Source of the DNA: Peristeroidobacter agariperforans
GTDB taxonomy: Bacteria; Pseudomonadota; Gammaproteobacteria; Steroidobacterales; Steroidobacteraceae
Direction of reading: 5' to 3'
Length of the DNA: 64,000 bases
Assembly (NCBI RefSeq): GCF_004138335.1
Contig: NZ_RYFW01000002.1
Coordinates: 663,501-727,500 of the forward strand
The first letter of the stretch is position 1, and the number at the start of each line of letters is the position of its first letter. A program made the translations under genes and the position numbers. The notes under the pieces were generated by a model that had not been told where the DNA came from, did not search any database, and was given only the letters and a program-made list of their open reading frames with translations. Shown here piece after piece: positions 20,584-62,144 of the stretch.

Positions 20584-21888
20584 ATGCGCAAAGACGAATT
20601 CGCCCGCCGGCGCCGGCAGCTCATGAAGATGATGGGCCGCGGCGCCATCGCCATCCTGCCCGCGGTTCCCGAAAAGACGCGCAACAGCGACGTCAGCTAT
20701 CACTATCGGCCCGATAGCGATTTCTTCTATCTGACCGGCTTTGGCGAGCCCGAATCGGTGGCCGTGCTGATACCGGGACGCGCCCATGCCGAATATGTGC
20801 TGTTCACGCGCGAGCGCGATCCAACTCGCGAGACATGGGATGGCAGACGCGCCGGACCGGAAGGCGCGGTGCGCGACTACGGCGCTGACGATGCGTTCCC
20901 CATCAACGACATCGACGACATCCTTCCGGGACTGATGGAGCACTGCTCGCGTGTTTACTACACGATGGGCCTGCACCAGGAGTTCGATCAACGCGTGATC
21001 GGCTGGGTCAACTCGCTCAAGACGCAGGCGCGCACCGGCGTGCATCCTCCGCAGGAATTCGTGGCGCTGGATCACTTGCTCCACGACATGCGCTTGTACA
21101 AATCGCGCCCCGAGTTGGACGCCATGCGCGAGTCGGCCCGAATCGCGGTTGCTGCCCACAAGCGCGCGATGCAGTTCGTCGAACCGGGCCGCAAGGAATA
21201 CCAGGTGATGGCCGAGCTGCTGCACGAGTTCAAGATGAACGATGCGGATATCTCGTATCACCCCATCGTCGGCGGCGGCGCCAACACGTGCATCCTGCAC
21301 TATCACGAGAACTCCGAAGAGTTGCGCGATGGCGATCTGCTGTTGATCGACGCCGGCTGCGAATACCGGCTGTATGCCTCCGATATCACGCGCACTTTCC
21401 CAGTGGGCGGCCGTTTCACGCCCGAGCAGCGGGCCGTGTATGAAGTCGTATTGGAGGCGCAGCACGCCGCGATCGACAAGACCAAACCCGGCAATCATTG
21501 GAACGAGCCGCACGAGGCGGCGGTGAAAGCCATCACCCAGGGGCTCGTAAAACTCGGCTTGCTGAAAGGCAAGGTGCCGAACCTGATCAAGGAGGGCGCT
21601 TATCGCCGCTTCTACATGCACCGGACCGGTCATTGGCTGGGCATGGATGTGCACGATGTCGGCGACTACAAGATCGGCGATCAATGGCGCGTGCTCGAGC
21701 CCGGCATGGCCATGACGGTCGAGCCGGGGATTTATATTCCGGCCGGCCTCAAGGGCGTGCCGAAGCGTTGGTGGAATATCGGCGTGCGCATCGAGGATGA
21801 CGTGGTGGTGACCAAGGACGGCAACGAAGTGCTGACGGCCGGGCTGGTCAAAGACGCCGATGGCATCGAAAAGCTGATGAATGCATGA
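20584..21888 (+). CDS. pepP: Xaa-Pro aminopeptidase PepP
   Basis: 434 residues. The N-terminal creatinase-like domain has FARRRRQLMKMM and YHYRPDSDFFYLTGFGEPE. The C-terminal pita-bread domain carries the metal ligands in LLIDAGCEYRLYASDITRTFP (two Asp), HRTGHWLGMDVHD (His), TVEPGIY (Glu) and IRIEDDVVV-type Glu. It removes N-terminal residues before proline in the cytosol. It overlaps ubiH by 4 bp, the widespread pepP-ubiH-ubiI arrangement. Confidence 0.97.
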   Translation: MRKDEFARRRRQLMKMMGRGAIAILPAVPEKTRNSDVSYHYRPDSDFFYLTGFGEPESVAVLIPGRAHAEYVLFTRERDPTRETWDGRRAGPEGAVRDYGADDAFPINDIDDILPGLMEHCSRVYYTMGLHQEFDQRVIGWVNSLKTQARTGVHPPQEFVALDHLLHDMRLYKSRPELDAMRESARIAVAAHKRAMQFVEPGRKEYQVMAELLHEFKMNDADISYHPIVGGGANTCILHYHENSEELRDGDLLLIDAGCEYRLYASDITRTFPVGGRFTPEQRAVYEVVLEAQHAAIDKTKPGNHWNEPHEAAVKAITQGLVKLGLLKGKVPNLIKEGAYRRFYMHRTGHWLGMDVHDVGDYKIGDQWRVLEPGMAMTVEPGIYIPAGLKGVPKRWWNIGVRIEDDVVVTKDGNEVLTAGLVKDADGIEKLMNA

Positions 21889-23135
21889 GTGACCCGGACG
21901 CCACGCCTCTAGTCGTCGATGTCGCCATCGCTGGCGGCGGATTGGTCGGCGCCAGCCTGGCGCTCGCGCTGGCCCAGTTGCAGCTCAAAGTCGCACTGAT
22001 CGAGGCGGCGCCCTTCGGCGCTGTCGATCAACCGAGCTTCGACGATCGCAGTACCGCGATATCGAACGGCAGTCGCCGCATTTTCGAAGCGCTCGGGGTC
22101 TGGCCGCTGATCGAGCGCGAGGCCACTGCGATCCGTCGCATTCACGTTTCCGATCAAGGGCGCTTCGGCTTCACGCGCATCGATGCGAAGGAACAGGGCC
22201 TGAGTGCGCTGGGCTACGTCGTCGTGAATCGGATCATGGGCGCGGCTCTGTGGCGCCGGCTGCAGGCCGAGCCCTCAATCAATGTGCTCGCGCCGGCCAA
22301 AGTGCAGTCGATGCAATTGCAACAGCACAGCCAGCGTATTGAATGCGCGATGGCGGGTGGCGTGCGCATCGTGCAAGCGAAGCTCGCGATCGCCGCCGAC
22401 GGTGCTCGTTCCACCGTGCGGCAATCGGCCGGCATCGGCTCGAGCACTTGGGACTACGAGCAGGTCGCGCTGGTCAGCAACGTGCTCTCACAGCACTTCC
22501 ACGATCACGTCGCATACGAGCGTTTCACCGATGCGGGCCCGTTGGCGCTGCTGCCGTTGACCGAAGGGCGGTTGGGCGTGGTGTGGACCTTCCGTCCCGA
22601 CACCGCCAAAGAAATGACGCTGCTGAACGATGCTGAATTCCTGGCGCGCTTGCAGGACACGTTCGGTTTCCGCCTCGGTCGCTTTACGCGAGTGGGGCAG
22701 CGGCAGTTGTATCCCCTGTCGTTGACGCGTTCCGACGAATACGTCGCCGAGCGCCTCGCTATCGTCGGTAATGCCGCGCAGACGCTCCATCCAATCGCAG
22801 GACAAGGATTCAACCTCGGCCTGCGAGACGCAGTGAGCCTCGCCGAGGTGCTGGCGGATGGGCTCGCGCAAGGAGCAGGCGAGTTCGATGCGGGCGACGG
22901 CATGTGGCTGCAGCGCTATCGCGAATGGCGGGCCGCCGATCGCAGCAACATCGTGCGCTTCACCGACGGATTGGTGAGGGTGTTCTCTCAGCCGCTCGGT
23001 CCGGTCAAGTTGCTACGTAATGCGGGCATGCTGGCGTTCGATCTCATGCCGGCGGCGAAAGATGCGTTATCGCAGTTGTCGTTGGGGGCTGCGGGTCGGG
23101 TGCCACGTCTGGCGCGAGGCGCGCCGCTGAAATGA
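21885..23135 (+). CDS. ubiH: 2-octaprenyl-6-methoxyphenyl hydroxylase UbiH
   Basis: 416 residues. An N-terminal FAD site VAIAGGGLVGASLALALA is followed by the DDRSTAISNGSRRIFEALGVW motif and the second FAD motif GNAAQTLHPIAGQGFNLGLRD, whose NAAQTLHP form is typical of UbiH rather than UbiI. It is an aerobic flavin monooxygenase that hydroxylates the ubiquinone ring at C1. It is coupled to pepP and ubiI by ATGA overlaps on both sides. Confidence 0.95.
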   Translation: MSDPDATPLVVDVAIAGGGLVGASLALALAQLQLKVALIEAAPFGAVDQPSFDDRSTAISNGSRRIFEALGVWPLIEREATAIRRIHVSDQGRFGFTRIDAKEQGLSALGYVVVNRIMGAALWRRLQAEPSINVLAPAKVQSMQLQQHSQRIECAMAGGVRIVQAKLAIAADGARSTVRQSAGIGSSTWDYEQVALVSNVLSQHFHDHVAYERFTDAGPLALLPLTEGRLGVVWTFRPDTAKEMTLLNDAEFLARLQDTFGFRLGRFTRVGQRQLYPLSLTRSDEYVAERLAIVGNAAQTLHPIAGQGFNLGLRDAVSLAEVLADGLAQGAGEFDAGDGMWLQRYREWRAADRSNIVRFTDGLVRVFSQPLGPVKLLRNAGMLAFDLMPAAKDALSQLSLGAAGRVPRLARGAPLK

Positions 23136-24382
23136 AGAACGGCTTTCACATTCTGGTCATCGGCGGCGGCATGGTCGGCGCCTGCGTCGCTGCGTTGGCC
23201 GCTGCCGATCGTCGCTTCGCCGACCTGCGCATCGCCGTGTTGGAATCGAACCCGCCAGCGCTGCCGCCGCCCGATGCAGTAGACGATATCGATCTGCGCG
23301 TATCCGCGATCTCACGCGCTTCAGAGCGCATCCTGAGCGAGATCGGGGCGTGGCAGCTGATACCGCGTCAACACGTTTGTGCGTACGACGACATGAGCGT
23401 CTGGGACGCTGCCGGCAAGCCGCGCGGTCCGGGGTCGATTCACTTCTCCGCCGGCGAATCGGGTGAGCCCAATCTTGGATATATCGTCGAGAACCGCCGC
23501 GTGCTGTGGTCGATCTATGACTGCGCCGCCTTTCGCAATCGTGTGACGTTGCTACGAGGTGAGCTGAGCGGGCTCGAGTTCGAGGAGGATCGGGCCACGG
23601 CGATCCTGAGCGACGGTCGTCGCATCGACGCCGCGCTGATCGTGGGATCGGATGGCTCGGGTTCGTTGAGCCGCAAGCTCGCCGGCATCGAGACGCGAGG
23701 CTGGGAATACGACCAACGCGCCTTCGTCACCCACGTTCGCACCGAGCGTCCCCATGCCCGAACGGCGTGGCAACGATTCCTGCCGGATGGACCGATCGCA
23801 TTCCTGCCGCTCGCCGACGGGCGCAGCTCCATCGTGTGGACGACCACGCCCGAACATGCCGAGCGCCTGGTGGGAGAAGCACCAGAGCAAGTCGCGAAAG
23901 AGTTGACGCTGGCGCTCGACGGCACGCTCGGCAACGTCGAGCTGGCCGGACCTCGCGGGCAATTTCCTCTGCGACTCACCCACGCCAAAGACTATTGCCG
24001 CGAGCGATTCGTCCTGGTCGGCGATGCGGCTCACGCCATTCACCCGCTGGCAGGGCAGGGCGTGAACCTCGGGTTCCTCGATGGCGCCGCGTTGGTCGAG
24101 GTGCTGGCCGAGGAGCTGGATGGCGGCCTGGCTCCCGCATTCATTGGCGAGCGCCGCGTCCTGCGTCGTTACGAGCGCTGGCGCAAGAGCGAGAATGCGG
24201 TGGCGTTAGGTCTGGTCGATGGATTGAACAAGCTGTTTGGCAGCCGTGCCGATACTCTCGGCTGGGCGCGTCGCACCGGCTTGAGCATTCTCGACGGGCA
24301 CGGGCTCGCGAAACGTTTCTTGATGGGGCGCGCGCTCGGAATTCGAGGCGCGGCGCCAGCGCTGGTTCGCTCGCATCGTTAA
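23132..24382 (+). CDS. ubiI: UbiI/VisC-type ubiquinone biosynthesis hydroxylase
   Basis: 416 residues. FHILVIGGGMVGACVAALA is the FAD entry, DIDLRVSAISRASERIL the conserved substrate-side helix and VGDAAHAIHPLAGQGVNLGFLDGAALVEVL the C-terminal FAD motif. This is the second flavin monooxygenase of the pair and probably hydroxylates C5 of the ring. UbiI, UbiF and UbiL are hard to separate by eye, so the exact ring position is inferred from gene order. Confidence 0.88.
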   Translation: MKNGFHILVIGGGMVGACVAALAAADRRFADLRIAVLESNPPALPPPDAVDDIDLRVSAISRASERILSEIGAWQLIPRQHVCAYDDMSVWDAAGKPRGPGSIHFSAGESGEPNLGYIVENRRVLWSIYDCAAFRNRVTLLRGELSGLEFEEDRATAILSDGRRIDAALIVGSDGSGSLSRKLAGIETRGWEYDQRAFVTHVRTERPHARTAWQRFLPDGPIAFLPLADGRSSIVWTTTPEHAERLVGEAPEQVAKELTLALDGTLGNVELAGPRGQFPLRLTHAKDYCRERFVLVGDAAHAIHPLAGQGVNLGFLDGAALVEVLAEELDGGLAPAFIGERRVLRRYERWRKSENAVALGLVDGLNKLFGSRADTLGWARRTGLSILDGHGLAKRFLMGRALGIRGAAPALVRSHR

Positions 24383-24421
24383 ACTGCACGGGCGCAATGT
24401 CACTAAGGGGTGGACCGGGGG

Positions 24422-26059
24422 ATGCAAAGCACGCTCTTCATCCAATCCCCGCCGCAGCTGGGCAACCAGTATGGCGACGATCCCTTTTTGCGTGCCTATT
24501 TGCAGCGGCGCCTGCCGGCCGAGATGCTGGCGCAGATCGAGCCGTCGCTCACCGAGCTCGGCGAGCTGGCCGGCGGTGAGTTGTATCGACTGCAGCTGCA
24601 GGACCGGCTCAACGAGCCGACGCTGACGCAGTGGGATGCCTGGGGTAATCGCATCGATCGCATCGAAGTGTCGCCGCTGTGGCGTCGCGCCGCTGAGATC
24701 GCGGCCACTCAGGGGCTCATCGCGATTCCGTATGAGCGCCGTCACGGCCGCTACTCCCGCATCCATCAGTTTGCCGCCGTTTATTTGTTCCATCCCTCAT
24801 CGGATGTTTATACCTGTCCGTTGGCCATGACCGATGGCGCCGCCCGCACGCTGACAGTGTCGGGCAACCAGGCGCTGATCGATCGCGCCGTCACACGCTT
24901 GACGCACCGTGACCCTTCAGAGGCTTGGACCAGCGGTCAATGGATGACCGAAGCGACCGGCGGCTCCGACGTGGGCGCCTCGCTCACGCAAGCCGTGCGC
25001 GATGAGTCGGGCCAATGGCGGCTGTATGGCAAGAAGTGGTTCACCTCGGCGATTACGTCACAAATGGCGCTGACGCTCGCCCGGCCCGAGGGCAACGGTC
25101 CTGGCGGCAGCGGTCTCGCCATGTTCTACGTCGAGACTCACAACGACGATGGCGCCTTGAACGGCATCCGCGTCGAGCGCCTCAAGGATAAATTGGGGAC
25201 TCGCAAGGTTCCGACCGCCGAGCTCACGTTGGACGGTGCGCGCGCCGTGCTGGTGGGCGACACCCGCCATGGCACTCGAAACATTGAGCCCATGCTGACG
25301 GTGACCCGCGCCTGGAACAGCGTGACGTCGGTCAGCTTCATGCGTCGCGCGCTCGCGTTGGCCCGTGCTTATGCCCGTCAGCGGCGCGCCTTCGGTGCAA
25401 AGCTCGAGGAGTTGCCGTTACACGTCGATACCCTCGCGGGGCTGGAAGCGGAAACGCGGGGTGCGTTCCTGCTGGCCTTCGAACTGGTCGAGTTGATGGG
25501 CCGGCAAGAGGCGGGCGAGATCGATGATGCTCAGAAAGCATTGCTCCGGGTAATCACGCCGATCGCCAAGCTGCTGACCGCCAAACAAGCCGTCCATGTC
25601 GTGAGCGAGTGCATAGAAGCGTTTGGGGGCGCCGGTTATGTAGAAGATACCGGTCTGCCGCTGCTGTTACGTGACACGCAGGTGTTGCCGATCTGGGAAG
25701 GCACCACGAACGTGCTGGCGTTGGATACCGTACTGCGTGGAGAGCTCAGCGTCGGATTGCCGGCATTGCGACAACGAATCCAGCAAGGTATCTCAGCCCA
25801 TACTGAAGGTCGCCTGGCCGAGGCAGGCCAGCAGGCGCTTGCCGCCGTCGAACATGTGTTCAGCTGGTTGAGTCACAATGACGACCCGCGCCGCCTGCAG
25901 GCCCACGCCCGCCGGCTGGCGATGACTCTGGGACGCGCGCTGGAGCTGGCGTTGCTGGTCGAAGCTGGCGATGCAGCCGCGGCCTGCCGGTTCGCCGCTG
26001 CGCCCTTGGATTTGCTGGTCGATATCAATAGCGAAGATTCCGCCCGCCTGATCGAATGA
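24422..26059 (+). CDS. AidB/ACAD-like acyl-CoA dehydrogenase family protein
   Basis: 545 residues from the ATG at 24422 (a GTG at 24410 is possible). TSGQWMTEATGGSDVGASL is the flavin-binding segment, KLGTRKVPTAELTLDGARA the central beta part and EAFGGAGYVEDTGLPLLLRDTQVLPIWEGTTNVLALD the helical C-terminus of AidB-like enzymes. A C-terminal extension of about 110 residues follows. Substrate unknown. Its stop overlaps the next gene by 4 bp (ATGA), tying it to an inactive-transglutaminase/7TM protein, which is an unexpected partner for a flavin dehydrogenase. Confidence 0.9.
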   Translation: MQSTLFIQSPPQLGNQYGDDPFLRAYLQRRLPAEMLAQIEPSLTELGELAGGELYRLQLQDRLNEPTLTQWDAWGNRIDRIEVSPLWRRAAEIAATQGLIAIPYERRHGRYSRIHQFAAVYLFHPSSDVYTCPLAMTDGAARTLTVSGNQALIDRAVTRLTHRDPSEAWTSGQWMTEATGGSDVGASLTQAVRDESGQWRLYGKKWFTSAITSQMALTLARPEGNGPGGSGLAMFYVETHNDDGALNGIRVERLKDKLGTRKVPTAELTLDGARAVLVGDTRHGTRNIEPMLTVTRAWNSVTSVSFMRRALALARAYARQRRAFGAKLEELPLHVDTLAGLEAETRGAFLLAFELVELMGRQEAGEIDDAQKALLRVITPIAKLLTAKQAVHVVSECIEAFGGAGYVEDTGLPLLLRDTQVLPIWEGTTNVLALDTVLRGELSVGLPALRQRIQQGISAHTEGRLAEAGQQALAAVEHVFSWLSHNDDPRRLQAHARRLAMTLGRALELALLVEAGDAAAACRFAAAPLDLLVDINSEDSARLIE

Positions 26060-27588
26060 ACAATCGTCACATCTATGTGCTGTCAGCGGTGCTGGCGCTG
26101 ATGGGCTTGGCGCTGTTCGCGTACAAGTCGCAAGTGCTCGGCTTTCCGCTGCAGCCGCAGGAACAGACGCGCGTCTGGACCATTGAGGCGGCGGTGCGCT
26201 TCGATCCGGGTCCGGCGGCGGTCAAAGCGACGTTGCGCATTCCCAACCTGACGCCCGGCTTTTCCATCCTGGACGAGAACTTCATTTCGCGCGGCTTCGG
26301 GCATGCCACGCGGTCCGCCCCGGCGGGACGCGAATCTCAATGGACGCTGCGCCAGGCGACCGGCCCGCAGACGCTGTACTACCGAGCGCAGGTGTATCGC
26401 GATGCCAGCCGCATCGCCGAGGACACGACGCCGCCGTTTCCCGAACAGCCGGTGCTGGACGAGCCGTCGCGCATCGCCATGGAAGGATTGATCGCCGAAG
26501 TGCGGCGGCAGTCGGCCGATGTCGCGAGCTTCACGACCGAGCTGCTTCGTCACATCAATCACGCCGAACGCGATCCGTACGTCAGTTTGTTCATGAGCCG
26601 GGGCAGTGCGCCGGCGGACGCAGCCGAGCTGGCCACCATCTTCCTGGCCGGCGCTTCGATTCCCGCACGCATCGCGCACGGCATTCAGCTGCGCAACGTG
26701 GCGGGGCCGGTGCAGTCCCAACAGCTGCTGGAAGTGCACGACGGCGTGCAATGGTTGTACTTCGATCCCAAGACGCTGGAGCAGGGCTTGCCGCCGGACT
26801 TCCTGATCTGGTGGCGCGGCGACGAAGCGATCGCCAGCCTCGAAGGCGGCAGTAATCTGGATGTGACGCTCGCGGTTCAGCAAAACCTGCTGGATTCGAT
26901 GGTGGTGGCCGAGCGCCGGGCCGAGTTGACCGGCTCGCACGCCATGGACTTCTCGCTGTTTGCGTTGCCGATTGCGACCCAGGCGGTGTACGCGGTGCTG
27001 ATGATGATTCCGATCGGCGCACTGGTGATCATGCTGCTGCGTAACTTCATCGGCGTGAAGACGTTCGGCACGTTCATGCCGGTGCTGGTGGCGCTGGCGT
27101 TTCGCGAGACGCGGCTGCTGTGGGGCATCGTGCTGTTTGCCATCATCGTCTCGCTGGGACTGCTGATCCGGTTCTATCTGGAAAAGCTGCGGCTGCTGCT
27201 GGTGCCGCGTTTGACCACTGTGCTCACCGTGGTGGTGCTGTTGATGGCTGGCATCAGCGTGCTGAGTCAGAAACTGGAGCTGCAGCCGGGCCTGTCGATC
27301 GCGCTGTTCCCGATGGTCATCCTGTCGATGACGATCGAGCGCATGTCGATCGTGTGGGAGGAGCGCGGCGCGTCGGAGGCCATCCAGGAAGGCATCGGCA
27401 GCTTGCTGGTGGCTGCGGTCGCCTACGTCATCATGGGCATCGCGTGGCTGGAACACTTGATCTTCGTGTTCCCGGAACTGTTGCTGCTGGTGATCGCGAT
27501 GTCGCTGCTGGCCGGTCGTTACACCGGCTATCGATTGCTCGAGTTGCGCCGCTTCAAGGCGCTGACGCCATCGCGGAGCGAACCCTGA
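26056..27588 (+). CDS. Inactive transglutaminase fused to seven transmembrane helices (UUP1 family)
   Basis: 510 residues. One N-terminal membrane anchor (about 7-24) is followed by an extracytoplasmic region with a transglutaminase-like core (about 140-260: ELATIFLAGASIPARIAHG, then WLYFDPKT) whose catalytic Cys-His-Asp set is not evident, so it is probably a binding module. The C-terminal 200 residues carry seven hydrophobic segments with IGVKTFGTFMPVLVALAFRET and LELQPGLSIALFPMVILSMTIER, the signature of this family. It is coupled to the downstream ATP-grasp gene by a one-base TGATG overlap. A peptide-modification or surface role has been proposed from gene context; no product is known to me. 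Confidence 0.9.
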   Translation: MNNRHIYVLSAVLALMGLALFAYKSQVLGFPLQPQEQTRVWTIEAAVRFDPGPAAVKATLRIPNLTPGFSILDENFISRGFGHATRSAPAGRESQWTLRQATGPQTLYYRAQVYRDASRIAEDTTPPFPEQPVLDEPSRIAMEGLIAEVRRQSADVASFTTELLRHINHAERDPYVSLFMSRGSAPADAAELATIFLAGASIPARIAHGIQLRNVAGPVQSQQLLEVHDGVQWLYFDPKTLEQGLPPDFLIWWRGDEAIASLEGGSNLDVTLAVQQNLLDSMVVAERRAELTGSHAMDFSLFALPIATQAVYAVLMMIPIGALVIMLLRNFIGVKTFGTFMPVLVALAFRETRLLWGIVLFAIIVSLGLLIRFYLEKLRLLLVPRLTTVLTVVVLLMAGISVLSQKLELQPGLSIALFPMVILSMTIERMSIVWEERGASEAIQEGIGSLLVAAVAYVIMGIAWLEHLIFVFPELLLLVIAMSLLAGRYTGYRLLELRRFKALTPSRSEP

Positions 27589-28574
27589 TGTTTGGCCGCT
27601 ACCGAGGGTTGTCCGACGAGGGCGTGCTTGGGCTCAACAAGCGCAACGGCGATTACATCCTGCGTTTCAATCCGCGGCGGCTGTATCCGCTGGTCGATGA
27701 CAAGCTGAAAACCAAACGGCTGGCGCTGGCGGCCGGCATCGCGGTTCCGCAGTTGTACGGCGTCATCGAGACTCAGCATGACATCCGGCGGCTGCCGGAG
27801 ATCGTCAAGGACCATCCGGAGTTCGCGCTCAAGCCAGCGCACGGCAGCGCGGGGGACGGCATCGTCGTCATCTCCGGCCGCAGCTCGCAGCGTTATCGAA
27901 CCATCAGCGGCACGCTGCTCGATGACGATTTCCTGTATCACCACCTTTCCAACGCCATCAACGGGCAGTTCAGTCTGGGCGGCGTGCAGGATGTGGTCAT
28001 CGTCGAATACATGGTGCGCTTCTCGCCGCTGTTCGAGCGCATCAGTTATCTGGGCGTGCCGGATATCCGAGTGATCGTGTATCGCGGCTTCCCGATCATG
28101 TCGATGGTGCGTCTGCCGACACGCGCGTCGCACGGCAAAGCGAATTTGCACCAGGGCGCGGTGGGCGCGGGCATCGATCTCGCCAGCGGCGTCACCTTGG
28201 ATGGCGTGGTCGGGACACAGGTCGTCACGCATCACCCGGATACCACGCATGCGATCTCAGGGCTGAAGATTCCGGACTGGGATGTGATTCTGGATATTTC
28301 GGCGCGGTGCTACGAGCTGACCGGCATGGGCTATATCGGCGTCGATATCGTGCTCGATCGCGACCTGGGACCGTTGGTGCTCGAGTTGAATGCGCGGCCG
28401 GGGCTGGCGATCCAGATCGCCAATCGGCAGGGGTTGTTACGTCGTTTGAAAATCTGCGACGAGCGCGCCAACTTCTCCGCTGCCGCCGCCGAGCGCATTG
28501 CCTTCGCTCAGCACGAATTTCGCCATCCCGTCGGTCCGGTGCTCGCTACGGAAGCGGTGGCGAGTGTCGCCTAG
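27588..28574 (+). CDS. Alpha-L-glutamate ligase-like ATP-grasp protein
   Basis: 328 residues. LGLNKRNGDYILRFNPRRLYPLVDDKLKTK is split by ordinary ATP-grasp spacing from EFALKPAHGSAGDGIVVI (ATP loop with Lys) and GYIGVDIVLDRDLGPLVLELNARPGLAIQIAN (Mg-binding Asp/Glu/Asn). This is the RimK-related ligase type that forms amide bonds between an amino acid and a carboxylate. It is cytoplasmic and paired with the upstream 7TM protein. The aspartyl protease gene that often joins this pair in other genomes is not present here. Confidence 0.92.
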   Translation: MFGRYRGLSDEGVLGLNKRNGDYILRFNPRRLYPLVDDKLKTKRLALAAGIAVPQLYGVIETQHDIRRLPEIVKDHPEFALKPAHGSAGDGIVVISGRSSQRYRTISGTLLDDDFLYHHLSNAINGQFSLGGVQDVVIVEYMVRFSPLFERISYLGVPDIRVIVYRGFPIMSMVRLPTRASHGKANLHQGAVGAGIDLASGVTLDGVVGTQVVTHHPDTTHAISGLKIPDWDVILDISARCYELTGMGYIGVDIVLDRDLGPLVLELNARPGLAIQIANRQGLLRRLKICDERANFSAAAAERIAFAQHEFRHPVGPVLATEAVASVA

Positions 28575-29018
28575 CTAAGGAGCGTTGCGCGGATCGGTAC
28601 TAGGCTGGAGCGGAGACCCCTTGGTCCTTGCCGCCGGCACATCCACCGAGGCAAAGAATCCCGCCGACGTTCTGATCGTCACCTTCGACGGTCGGCAGCT
28701 GAAATCCCGCAGATCGATGTGCAGCGGCGTGGTGAATTCCTCGCGGGCCAGGTCATCGGGCTGACTATCCACCAACAGTCCGAGAATCTGCATGCGCTCA
28801 TCATCGAGCTGCCTGCAGGCATCCCATGCGACCCTGAATTGATGATCCGGATTCGTGCCACGGTAGGCGATGGTCATGACCAGCTGATCCTTGCCCGGAT
28901 CATAGGTCAGCGCGGTTACCGAGACGGCCGCGGCGGGGGTGACGTAGAGCAGGGCGGCGAAACAGACTGACCAAATACGCAGGTGCTGAACGAGTCGACC
29001 TAACGTAGCGCGGCGCAT
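28575..29018 (-). CDS. Secreted protein of unknown function
   Basis: 147 residues from the ATG at 29018, which has GGAGA seven bases upstream; an in-frame ATG at 29051 would overlap phhB and lacks such a site. A basic N-terminus and the hydrophobic stretch IWSVCFAALLYVTPAAA give a clear signal peptide, cleaved near AAA. The mature part is about 120 residues with two cysteines (WDACRQLDD and DFSCRPSK) that could form a disulfide. I do not recognise a family. It is last in the ispG-phhB unit and abuts the convergent ligase gene. Confidence 0.75.
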   Translation of the reverse strand: MRRATLGRLVQHLRIWSVCFAALLYVTPAAAVSVTALTYDPGKDQLVMTIAYRGTNPDHQFRVAWDACRQLDDERMQILGLLVDSQPDDLAREEFTTPLHIDLRDFSCRPSKVTIRTSAGFFASVDVPAARTKGSPLQPSTDPRNAP

Positions 29019-29031
29019 GTGAGTTCTCCGG

Positions 29032-29370
29032 CTAGGTGCGGGGTAACGCATCCACCTTGGCGGCGCAGATGAAATCGTTCTGCGACAGACCGCCGATGGC
29101 GTGAGTGTTGAAGTTCATGCGGCAATAGCCATAGCCGACTTCCATATCGGGATGGTGATCTTCGGCATTGGCGATGTGGGCCACCGCGTTTACGAAGCTC
29201 ATCGTGTGATAGAAATTACGGAACTTCCATTCCGCGCGGAGGCTCTTGCCGTCGGCGGCGAGCTTCCAGTCGCCGCTCACCTGTTTCATCAGCGCTTGCG
29301 CTTCATCGAGCGTCAGCGGCGCGACGCCGCCTTCGCAAGGCTTGCAGCGTTGTTCGGCGAGTGAGGTCAT
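29032..29370 (-). CDS. phhB: Pterin-4a-carbinolamine dehydratase
   Basis: 112 residues. The signature [31 protein letters not shown] contains the catalytic histidines (HH and NTH). It dehydrates the pterin product of aromatic amino acid hydroxylases and so regenerates the cofactor. No phenylalanine hydroxylase gene is in this window. It overlaps ispG by 4 bp (ATGA). Confidence 0.95.
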
Positions 29371-59508: not shown

Positions 59509-60873
59509 TCAGTTCGGCAAGGGCGGCAGCTTCGCTTCGATCATGTTCGCGGCCGCGTCATAGTCCACCGTGGCGAGCGAGTCGGCTTGCTGTGTCAGCG
59601 TGGACAAGATCTCACTTTGAATGCGGCCGCGTTCATAGGCGACGGAGTAGGGGATGTTGTCACGGAACATGACCATCGAATACCGGGGCACGAAGCGCGT
59701 CGGATGGCGACGCTCCAGCTCGAGCGACAGCGCCTTGTGCAAGTGGAACTTCGGATCGCGCACCGTGTCGCGCATTTCGAGATAGTTCTCGATCGCCATG
59801 TCGGCGATGGCGTTGGTATTCGGTCGACGCCATGTTTCGAACTCGCGGAAGCTGCGTGCCCAGTCGTCACTTCCCGTCAGCAAAGTGTCCAACTCGCGGC
59901 AGTCCTCGAAACAACAGTTCATGCCCTGGCCATGGAACGGCGTGATGGCGTGCGCCGCATCGCCGACCAGCAACAGTCGATCCTCGAACGACCATTGCTG
60001 GCAACGCACGGTGCCCATGATGCCGGTCGGGTGCTGAAGAAACTCCGCCGCCAGCTCCGGCATCAGCTGTTTCACATCGGGGAAGTGCCTGCCGAAGAAT
60101 GTTTCGATGCTGGCCGGCGTCGTCAGCGTCTCGAAACTGTCCGGCCCATTGAGCGGCAGAAACAACGTGACCGTGAAGCTGCCGTCGATATTCGGGAGCG
60201 CGATGAGCATGAAGCCGCCGCGGGGCCAGATGTGCAAGGCGTGCTTGTCGATACGCGGCTGACCGTTGGGCCACGGCGGCAACGTGAGTTCCTTGTAGCC
60301 GTGCTTGAGCAGGTCTTCGGTGCACGCAATGCCGAGCTGATCCACCAGGGTGCGGCGCAATACCGAGCCGGCGCCATCTGTCGCAAACACGCGCTCCATC
60401 GGAATGTCGTGCGGTTGACCGGCGGGATCCTGGAACTTCACTTGCTTGCGCGCGAAGTCCGCACCGATCGCGGGATGGCGGAACAACAGCTCGACGCCTG
60501 CTCGCTCGGCGGCATCGAGCAGAATGCAATTCAAGCCGGGCCGTGACACGGAATAAATGACTTCCTCCGGACGCTGGCCATAAGGCACAAAGGTCAGCGC
60601 GCCGCTCAGGTCGTGCAGCATGCGGCCGGGCAGCGGCACCAGCTCGGGTGTCACGTGTTCCATGACTCCGGCGAGCTCGAGTGCTCGAATGCCGCGGGCC
60701 GCGAGGGCGAGATTGATGGAGCGGCCGGCATCGATGAGCACGCGTCGCATGTCGTCCTGGCGTTCATACAGGCGCACGCGGTGACCGCGGCGAGCCAGGA
60801 TGATGGAAAGCAGCGTGCCTGCCAGCCCCGCGCCGACAACGGTTATCGGTTCGTCACGTCTGTCATCGCTCAT
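59509..60873 (-). CDS. kmo: Kynurenine 3-monooxygenase
   Basis: 454 residues from the ATG at 60873 that overlaps the kynU stop (ATGA); a start at 60909 would run into kynU. ITVVGAGLAGTLLSIILARRGHRVRLYERQDDMRR is the FAD entry with the following GRSINLALAARGIRAL motif specific for this enzyme. LLVGDAAHAITPFHGQGMNCCFED is the second FAD motif. It hydroxylates kynurenine to 3-hydroxykynurenine with NADPH and oxygen. Confidence 0.97.
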   Translation of the reverse strand: MSDDRRDEPITVVGAGLAGTLLSIILARRGHRVRLYERQDDMRRVLIDAGRSINLALAARGIRALELAGVMEHVTPELVPLPGRMLHDLSGALTFVPYGQRPEEVIYSVSRPGLNCILLDAAERAGVELLFRHPAIGADFARKQVKFQDPAGQPHDIPMERVFATDGAGSVLRRTLVDQLGIACTEDLLKHGYKELTLPPWPNGQPRIDKHALHIWPRGGFMLIALPNIDGSFTVTLFLPLNGPDSFETLTTPASIETFFGRHFPDVKQLMPELAAEFLQHPTGIMGTVRCQQWSFEDRLLLVGDAAHAITPFHGQGMNCCFEDCRELDTLLTGSDDWARSFREFETWRRPNTNAIADMAIENYLEMRDTVRDPKFHLHKALSLELERRHPTRFVPRYSMVMFRDNIPYSVAYERGRIQSEILSTLTQQADSLATVDYDAAANMIEAKLPPLPN

Positions 60874-62144
60874 TGCAGCGCCTGCTCCAGCGCGGCGACG
60901 AATTGCCACACATCGAGGAACGAATTGTAGAGCGGCACCGGGGCGACGCGAATGATGTCGGGTTCGCGCCAGTCGCAGAACACCCCTTGTGAGGCGAGGG
61001 CGTCGAAGGCGGCGCGAGCCTCGGCAGCTGAACGGTGCAACCGGATGGACAACTGGCAGCCGCGCGCTTCGGGATCGCTCGGGGTCGTGACCGCCAGCGC
61101 CTTCGACAAGCGAGCCTGAAGCAGCGCTTGCAGATAGGCCGTCAAGTGCAGCGATTTCGCTCGCAACCGGTCCATGCCCGCCTTATCGAAGAGCGGCAAC
61201 GAGGCCAGCAGCGGCGCGGCGGCGAGAATGGGAGGATTCGAAAGCTGCCAGCCTTCCGCGCCCGCAATGGGCTGGAATGAAGCGGGCATCTGAAACCGGC
61301 TCTGCTTGTCGTGGCCCCACCAGCCCGCGAAGCGAGGCAGGTCCACTGAGCGCGCATGACGCTCGTGCACGAAACAGCCGCCGATTGCGCCGGGCCCGGC
61401 GTTCAAATATTTGTAACTGCACCACACGGCGAAATCGACGTTCCAGTCGTGCAGTTTCAATGGCACGTTGCCGATGGCGTGCGCGAGATCGAAACCGACC
61501 GTGCATCCCTGGCCCCGGGCACAGCGCGTGATCGCTTCGATGTCGAAACGCTGCCCCGTCAAGTACTGCACTCCCGGCAACATCACCGTGGCGATGCGCT
61601 GACCTTCGCGCTCGATCAACGAACAAATGTCTTCGGTGCGCAGGATGCTTTCGCCTGCACGTGGAGCGATCTCGATCAGCGCCGTCTTCGGATCGAAGCC
61701 GTGATACTTGATCTGCGAGGCGACAGCGTACTGATCCGACGGGAAGGCCTGCTGCTCGACGAGGATGGCCTCTCGTCCGGGACGCGGACGATAGAAGCTG
61801 GTGAACATCAGATGCAGGTTCACCGTCAGCGAGTTCATCGCGACCACTTCGAGCGGCTGCGCGCCGGCCAGCCTGGCCAGCGAACCCGTCAGCTGTTCGT
61901 GATACGGCAGCCATGGACGCGACGATGCGAAATGGCCTTCGACTGCGAGCTCGGCCCAATGCTGCAATTCTTCATTGAGCACTCGCGCGACGCCGCGGGG
62001 CTGCAGCCCAAGCGAGTGGCCACATAGATAGATGCTGTCGCCGCCATGCTCGCGTTGTGGAATGAAGAACTCGGCACGCAGCGGCGCCAGTGAATCGGCG
62101 GCATCCTGCTGTTCGGCGAAGCTGCGCTCGACGGAAACGTTCAT
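60870..62144 (-). CDS. kynU: Kynureninase
   Basis: 424 residues. YLCGHSLGLQPRGV, MNSLTVNLHLMFTSFYRP and the PLP lysine Lys245 in VWCSYKYLNAGPGAIGGCFVHE are family marks, with LAGAQPLEVVAMN before. It cleaves (3-hydroxy)kynurenine to (3-hydroxy)anthranilate and alanine. ATGA overlaps join it to kynB upstream and kmo downstream. Confidence 0.97.
   Translation of the reverse strand: MNVSVERSFAEQQDAADSLAPLRAEFFIPQREHGGDSIYLCGHSLGLQPRGVARVLNEELQHWAELAVEGHFASSRPWLPYHEQLTGSLARLAGAQPLEVVAMNSLTVNLHLMFTSFYRPRPGREAILVEQQAFPSDQYAVASQIKYHGFDPKTALIEIAPRAGESILRTEDICSLIEREGQRIATVMLPGVQYLTGQRFDIEAITRCARGQGCTVGFDLAHAIGNVPLKLHDWNVDFAVWCSYKYLNAGPGAIGGCFVHERHARSVDLPRFAGWWGHDKQSRFQMPASFQPIAGAEGWQLSNPPILAAAPLLASLPLFDKAGMDRLRAKSLHLTAYLQALLQARLSKALAVTTPSDPEARGCQLSIRLHRSAAEARAAFDALASQGVFCDWREPDIIRVAPVPLYNSFLDVWQFVAALEQALQ

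Follow-up and report, generated by a model that had tools for sequence, protein, structure and literature searches.

Introduction

The closest described system to the gene pair considered here is the rloABC operon, which was reported from Pseudomonas aeruginosa in 2025. Passages of that report (PMC12239564) state that P. aeruginosa deprived of its three secreted RloA retropepsins fails to grow at low salt and shows poor biofilm formation, raised beta-lactam sensitivity and short, wide cells; that deletion of rloB or rloC in the RloA-less strain fully rescues the growth defect and partly the other defects; that single mutants in either of these two genes are themselves mildly impaired; and that RloA cleaves polyglutamate in vitro. 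The opposition of RloA to RloBC was thus shown in hypo-osmotic growth (PMC12239564). Passages of PMC12096838 report a higher output of vesicles from Shewanella vesiculosa when a gene for an inactive transglutaminase is disrupted. In this study, we have explored an rloB-rloC pair in a stretch of 64,000 nucleotides of Peristeroidobacter agariperforans (contig NZ_RYFW01000002.1, positions 663,501 to 727,500; G000:C10:663501-727500 in our sample), hereafter the window, taken from a genome (G000) that is 97.9% complete. In this window the pair has no rloA and is preceded by a gene for an acyl-CoA dehydrogenase (ACAD).

Our reading, to which we give a probability of about 0.6, is that the writer half of the Rlo system (RloB and RloC) lies behind a yecA-pepP-ubiH-ubiI run in Steroidobacter and its relatives, that RloA has been lost, that a hydrolase of the AspA/AstE type trims the product instead, and that the ACAD is a separate matter. 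A preliminary description of the window, made from its letters alone, had called the pair widespread and without an established product. The first statement is sound (PF14402 occurs in 79 of 369 genomes of the class), and the second is outdated, as the rlo operon has published genetics, reported in passages of PMC12239564. The pair itself is therefore already known; what is new is an rloBC lineage that has no RloA and has a candidate to replace it. In the literature that we searched, which was mostly open-access and excluded the survey of Iyer et al. (2009), we met neither such a lineage nor a link between AspA and rlo.

Results

The rloB homologue (26056..27588, + strand) encodes an inactive transglutaminase-like domain followed by a seven-transmembrane (7TM) domain, with Pfam matches to Transglut_i_TM and 7TM_transglut (PF14400, PF14402) both above cut-off. 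Its sole NCBIfam match is the RloB model NF052267, at 481 bits and under the model cut-off of 900. The protein, 99% identical to its Steroidobacter agaridevorans counterpart, contains no cysteine, which excludes a Cys-type transglutaminase reaction. The rloC homologue (27588..28574, +) encodes an ATP-grasp ligase, identified by Pfam ATPgrasp_ST (PF14397, above cut-off), by NCBIfam TIGR02291 (458 bits for a cut-off of 314) and by alignments. Judged from these sequence families, the two proteins are the RloB and RloC of an rloABC-type operon.

The preliminary description had pointed to a missing aspartyl protease, and our searches bear this out for the entire genome. In the class as a whole (369 genomes, 81 PF14402 places, of which 77 were fetched, that is, all but those of G000 and G003 and the weak ones of G344 and G225), we count 61 canonical RloB loci (L106-L166; the contig of L153 stops before rloC). 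In 59 of these 61, rloA immediately precedes rloB on the same strand, the exceptions being L161 and L128, the latter belonging to the order of the window; two of the upstream RloA proteins were scanned and both match PF05618. No PF05618 match was found in the window's own genome. A profile built from 20 RloA proteins, read up to an E value of 0.1, found no RloA in any of the 16 Steroidobacteraceae genomes that carry RloBC, and it did find RloA in all three positive controls; its matches in G315 and G268 are of RimB grade. Beyond the family, the order sample holds 78 RloB-bearing genomes, from which 40 further loci were fetched (L220-L259), and 41 RloBC-bearing genomes were tested for RloA. An RloA-grade match was obtained in 15 of the 41 (E 1e-57 to 3e-39), a match of RimB grade only in 11 (E 4e-22 to 3e-29) and none in the remaining 15. 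Counted by family, the RloA-grade match is lacking in 12 of 14 genomes of f2, in all 12 of f3 and in two of three of f183. Taken together, f2 and f3 lack it in 24 of 26 genomes, and rloBC in these two related families lies downstream of pepP/ubi genes.

Another secreted protease might have taken the place of RloA, and a gene with two Asp_protease_2 domains is the example that we followed, being present in 23 of the 29 genomes searched, the window's own included. No such gene was found in the RloBC-bearing G028 and G123, and it does occur in genomes devoid of RloBC such as G014, G018 and G034. On this distribution we rejected the gene as the replacement, and we regard a substitution of this kind as very improbable.

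The absence of RloA goes together with a particular neighbourhood. Among the 40 fetched order loci, 27 have pepP or ubi genes on the rloB strand, and 25 of these 27 have no RloA; in the other 13, where neither pepP nor ubi genes are seen in the fetched stretch, RloA is always present (13/13). The full arrangement ubiI-rloA-rloB-rloC is kept in one genome of f184 (G517, L256) and one of f183 (G563, L224). Five f3 loci (L229, L233, L235, L237, L241) have pepP followed by rloB and no match to ubiH or ubiI, which makes pepP the more constant neighbour. In a tree of 86 concatenated RloB and RloC rows, made by a quick method, the linked loci form one group (SH-aLRT, the Shimodaira-Hasegawa-like approximate likelihood ratio test, 97) nested among RloA-bearing loci; the RloA state changes four times on this tree and twice on a 51-row tree of the order. 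The simplest reading would be that rloABC moved behind ubiI, that rloA was then lost, and that the ACAD gene later took the vacated slot in Steroidobacter. When 17 RloA-less order rows were compared with the others (63 for RloB, 61 for RloC), no RloB position was fixed differently, and only two RloC positions were, both conservative (124, L to I; 137, A to V).

A candidate for the missing function came from the genes beyond rloC. A gene of the AspA/AstE type (PF24827; found by a profile built here, with one class-locus member scanned with Pfam), which we call AspA, lies directly behind rloC in nine of the 61 class loci, spread over five families, and nearby in another position in four more. 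All nine adjoining proteins have HGDE and a hydrophobic start by a crude hydropathy measure, on which that of L159 is borderline. The genome of the window encodes such a protein at G000:C9:1889253-1890413, with the PF24827 domain, a hydrophobic start, and HGDE and LIDLHTG, which we take to be metal-site motifs. Defining a strong AspA match by E <= 1e-100, a cut placed after we had seen a gap in the list from 6e-117 to 4e-87, we find one in 61 of 196 order genomes. AspA and RloB occur together in 60 of these, RloB alone in 18, AspA alone in one (G652) and neither in 117, so that AspA is present in 60 of 78 RloB-bearing and in one of 118 RloB-less genomes, in counts that ignore ancestry. Within the 41 genomes tested for RloA, strong AspA is found in 24 of 26 without RloA and in 4 of 15 with it. 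In the genus, 11 of the 14 RloB-bearing genomes were tested and all 11 have it; in the family, it was not found in G017, of genus g17, nor in four RloB-less members.

The same order has a second form of AspA. In 21 of 22 order genomes, the RimB-grade match has an AspA paralogue no more than 1.1 kb away, and the three such paralogues that we compared split from the rlo-type AspA with 100/100 support. These three have no clear signal, with hydropathy values of 0.83-1.62 as compared to 1.78-2.85 in the rlo-linked proteins.

It could also be that the RloBC product of this lineage needs no eraser, RloA having simply been dropped and AspA being unrelated. G017 (99% complete), G542 and G649 would agree with such a view, as they have RloBC and neither RloA nor strong AspA, and so would the position of AspA in the window's genome, where it is unlinked to rlo. 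In contrast, hardly any position of RloB or RloC differs consistently between RloA-less and other rows, and AspA tracks RloB across the order (60/78 against 1/118) and adjoins rloC in five other families. We consider this alternative rather unlikely, and we prefer the proposal that AspA serves as the eraser.

The gene in the position of rloA encodes the ACAD (24422..26059, +), which belongs to the ACDH-11/Bd2924/AidB group by Pfam and by matches to sequences of known structure. Three Pfam domains are above cut-off (AidB_N, Acyl-CoA_dh_M and Acyl-CoA_dh_1), an EGT motif stands at residue 426, and the similarity is far closer to Bd2924 (6sd8, E 1e-129) and ACDH-11 (4y9j, 4e-129) than to AidB (7e-49). 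The score against the AidB equivalog NF008594 is 191 bits, under the cut-off of 545, and AidB proper was rejected as its identity on both grounds. The preliminary description had named it an AidB-like dehydrogenase with a long C-terminal extension; the domains agree with the first half of that label as far as the group goes, AidB proper does not, and the extension is common to the family, as the ACDH-11 alignment covers residues 6-521 of 545. By sequence, then, the ACAD is an ACDH-11/Bd2924-type enzyme, and it would have a role of its own, probably on longer-chain acyl-CoA.

The preliminary description had made this dehydrogenase part of a module with the 7TM and ATP-grasp proteins and had suggested a survey of its recurrence beside the pair. 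Of 150 family genomes sampled, RloB was found in 17 and a close ACAD, at a threshold of E <= 1e-100, in 27. The ACAD gene lies between ubiI and rloB in 8 of the 14 RloB-bearing genomes of the genus sample (the window, L003, L004, L005, L007, L087, L090 and L091), and the site is free of it in the other six (L006, L086, L088, L089, L092, L093). Both g17 genomes lack it at the rloBC site and, at the same threshold, genome-wide, and it was likewise not found in rloBC-bearing G028, G123 and G135. Conversely, 16 of the 27 ACAD genomes have no RloB match. Seven of these belong to the sister genus g19, where ACAD lies directly behind ubiI in all seven and no rloB was found; in the nine others no ubiI was seen within the fetched flank (up to 1.5 kb). 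Around rloB, ACAD was matched in none of the 61 canonical class loci, in none of all 77 fetched class stretches (about 6 kb per side, less at contig ends) and in none of the 40 further order loci. At this site, ACAD and rloBC are gained and lost independently of each other, and the ACAD gene looks like a probably recent, unrelated neighbour of rloBC. The ACAD tree follows genera, which fits a single insertion behind ubiI before the g1/g19 split followed by losses or moves, among other possible histories. Elsewhere its neighbours, among the seven loci listed of eleven, include rtcB, ligD, a P-type ATPase and DUF1579, and the eight ACAD-neighbour open reading frames (ORFs) scanned hold no link to acyl metabolism.

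The idea of an acyl-modified amino-acid conjugate handled across the membrane, in which the ACAD would modify an acyl group, RloC join it to an amino acid and RloB deal with the product, draws on the adjacency in those eight genomes and on the ATGA start/stop overlap between ACAD and rloB (26056..26059, +), found in the window and also in L003, L004, L005 and L007, its four closest relatives. A start/stop overlap can be recent and bound to one lineage rather than a sign of a pathway. In L087, L090 and L091 the aligned RloB start falls about 70-200 bases past the aligned ACAD end (positions given by alignment, not true starts). Given the ACAD-free rloBC sites and rloBC-free ACAD genomes described above, and the want of any recurrence of ACAD beside the pair in the loci fetched from outside the genus, we reject this conjugate, which is at best a slender prospect.

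Alternatively, the ACAD might belong with the ubiquinone genes and pass electrons to the quinone pool via electron-transfer flavoprotein, as its place behind ubiI in the seven rloB-free g19 genomes would suggest. Against this, no ubiI was found in the fetched flank of the nine other RloB-less genomes, nor in the wider stretches of G003 and G060, the ACAD neighbours in G003 are rtcB and ligD, and passages of PMC6851490 report no observable activity for Bd2924, the closest studied enzyme. We find a role of this kind doubtful, and retain the view of the ACAD as a separate enzyme with its own task.

Upstream of the ACAD gene, the co-directional run comprises pepP (20584..21888, +; Xaa-Pro aminopeptidase, NF008131 at 480 bits, exceeding the cut-off of 465), ubiH (21885..23135, +; TIGR01984 and NF004356 above cut-off), which overlaps pepP by four bases, and a ubiquinone hydroxylase gene of the ubiI/visC type (23132..24382, +; subfamily TIGR01988 above cut-off), which overlaps ubiH by four bases. 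The ACAD start (ATG at 24422, 39 bases past the ubiI stop) has an in-frame GTG alternative at 24410. Its stop (TGA, 26057-26059) overlaps the rloB start (ATG, 26056-26058), and the rloB stop (TGA, 27586-27588) shares one base with the rloC start (ATG, 27588-27590) in TGATG. Both overlaps, as located by the preliminary description from 26056 and at 27588, were confirmed from the ORFs and the sequence. The coupled operon of three genes that it described stands with respect to these overlaps and falls with respect to the ACAD as first gene, since pepP, ubiH and ubiI precede it in the same direction. The run would form one transcript; a promoter and terminator search of it gave counts no higher than in shuffled sequence.

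The ORFs that follow rloC run in the opposite direction and comprise one without an assigned identity, a short pcd and ispG, the latter two named by eye. The first (28575-29051, -), of 158 amino acids, converges on rloC and has a signal-like start by eye. It was rejected as a hidden protease, having no Pfam or NCBIfam match and being present in only three (L003, L005, L007) of 15 rloB loci that were compared within the family. In the gap between rloC and pcd, L090 has an OmpA-like barrel gene, and L093 a similar ORF by eye. Five relatives have a cyclopropane-fatty-acid-synthase-like gene between ubiI and ACAD or rloB, matched by PF02353 in L087 (L087:5980-7092) and recognized by eye, from similarity to L087, in the four others (L090:5642-6826, L091:5323-6438, L094:6924-8063, L095:10314-11504). 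Far from the run (59509-62144, -), the window has two ORFs that resemble kynurenine monooxygenase and kynureninase by eye.

Discussion

Based on our results, we propose that the writer half of the Rlo system has persisted in this lineage with a different eraser. RloC, as a cytosolic ATP-grasp ligase, would probably ligate acidic amino acids onto an acceptor, the analogy with RimK pointing to glutamate; this predicted substrate is suggested by the family and by the cleavage of polyglutamate by RloA. RloB, in the inner membrane, would probably bind, present or export the product with its non-catalytic, transglutaminase-like periplasmic domain. A periplasmic eraser would then trim the product, namely RloA in most bacteria of the class and, here, the predicted secreted AspA/AstE-type metallo-amidohydrolase, whose activity would make RloA dispensable. 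The ACAD would be a separate ACDH-11/Bd2924-type enzyme that came to occupy the same slot in one Steroidobacter lineage.

Several observations weigh against this proposal. The three genomes with RloBC and neither RloA nor strong AspA (G017, G542, G649) indicate that AspA is not obligatory, G563 has RloA with a weak AspA match only, AspA is unlinked to rlo in the window's own genome, and that genome also has the two-domain Asp_protease_2 gene. As the RloA state changes only two (51 rows) or four times (86 rows), the complementarity of RloA and AspA is inseparable from shared ancestry, and an independent-pairs sign test of the two found only two pairs and had no power (median p 1). In the 51-row tree, made with more care and with the class rows left out, the base is open and the linked loci are not seen as one group. 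The AspA cut-off was set with the gap in view, and rlo-linked and RimB-linked AspA were told apart in their signal by a crude hydropathy measure.

Lineages with RloBC and without RloA are a natural counter-example to the severe defects of RloA loss in P. aeruginosa, and they make the RloBC product and its removal testable. The candidate belongs to a class of amidohydrolases that act on acidic N-acyl amino acids, which hints that the product may be an acidic amino-acid amide. More tentatively, there may be two parallel write/erase systems of one design, each with an ATP-grasp ligase, a retropepsin and an AspA/AstE-type amidohydrolase: a cytosolic one (RimK, RimB and signal-less AspA) and one of the envelope (RloC with RloB, RloA and signal-bearing AspA), in which AspA would be the second eraser that allows families to drop the retropepsin. 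In the passages of the RimK paper PMC10092738, the words deacylase, peptidase and AstE are absent.

Divergent relatives of RloB were also met in the class. In L167-L173, a divergent PF14402 protein and an ATP-grasp protein are followed by a TPR protein and an outer-membrane-barrel-like protein (one of each scanned), and no RloA match was found in these loci. The divergent PF14402 proteins of L176-L182 lie in stretches with RimB/RloA-type proteases, accompanied at L176, L179, L180 and L182 by a RimK-type ligase (that of L182 scanned with Pfam).

Compared to known systems, the window shares with the P. aeruginosa rloABC operon the RloB and RloC families, the order rloB-rloC, and the combination of an inactive transglutaminase-7TM protein with an ATP-grasp ligase. 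It differs in having no rloA, adjoining or elsewhere in the genome, in the position of the pair downstream of pepP-ubiH-ubiI, where an ACAD takes the place of rloA, and in an RloB that scores under the NCBIfam cut-off. The ACAD resembles ACDH-11, Bd2924 and AidB in near full-length similarity, in its AidB_N domain and in its EGT motif. The AspA protein of this genome has the PF24827 domain, HGDE and LIDLHTG in common with the AspA/AstE/DoeB amidohydrolases, and is set apart from them by its hydrophobic, signal-like start and by scores far under the NCBIfam equivalog cut-offs. With the RimK-RimB (RimABK) system of ribosome modification, the Rlo system has in common an ATP-grasp ligase opposed by a retropepsin and, in this order, an AspA paralogue adjoining the RimB-grade match (21/22). 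Unlike RimK-RimB, the Rlo system has RloB in addition, no RimB-family protein was found in the genome of the window, and its RloC has no match to PF18030, the RimK pre-ATP-grasp domain that the RimK of L182 does possess.

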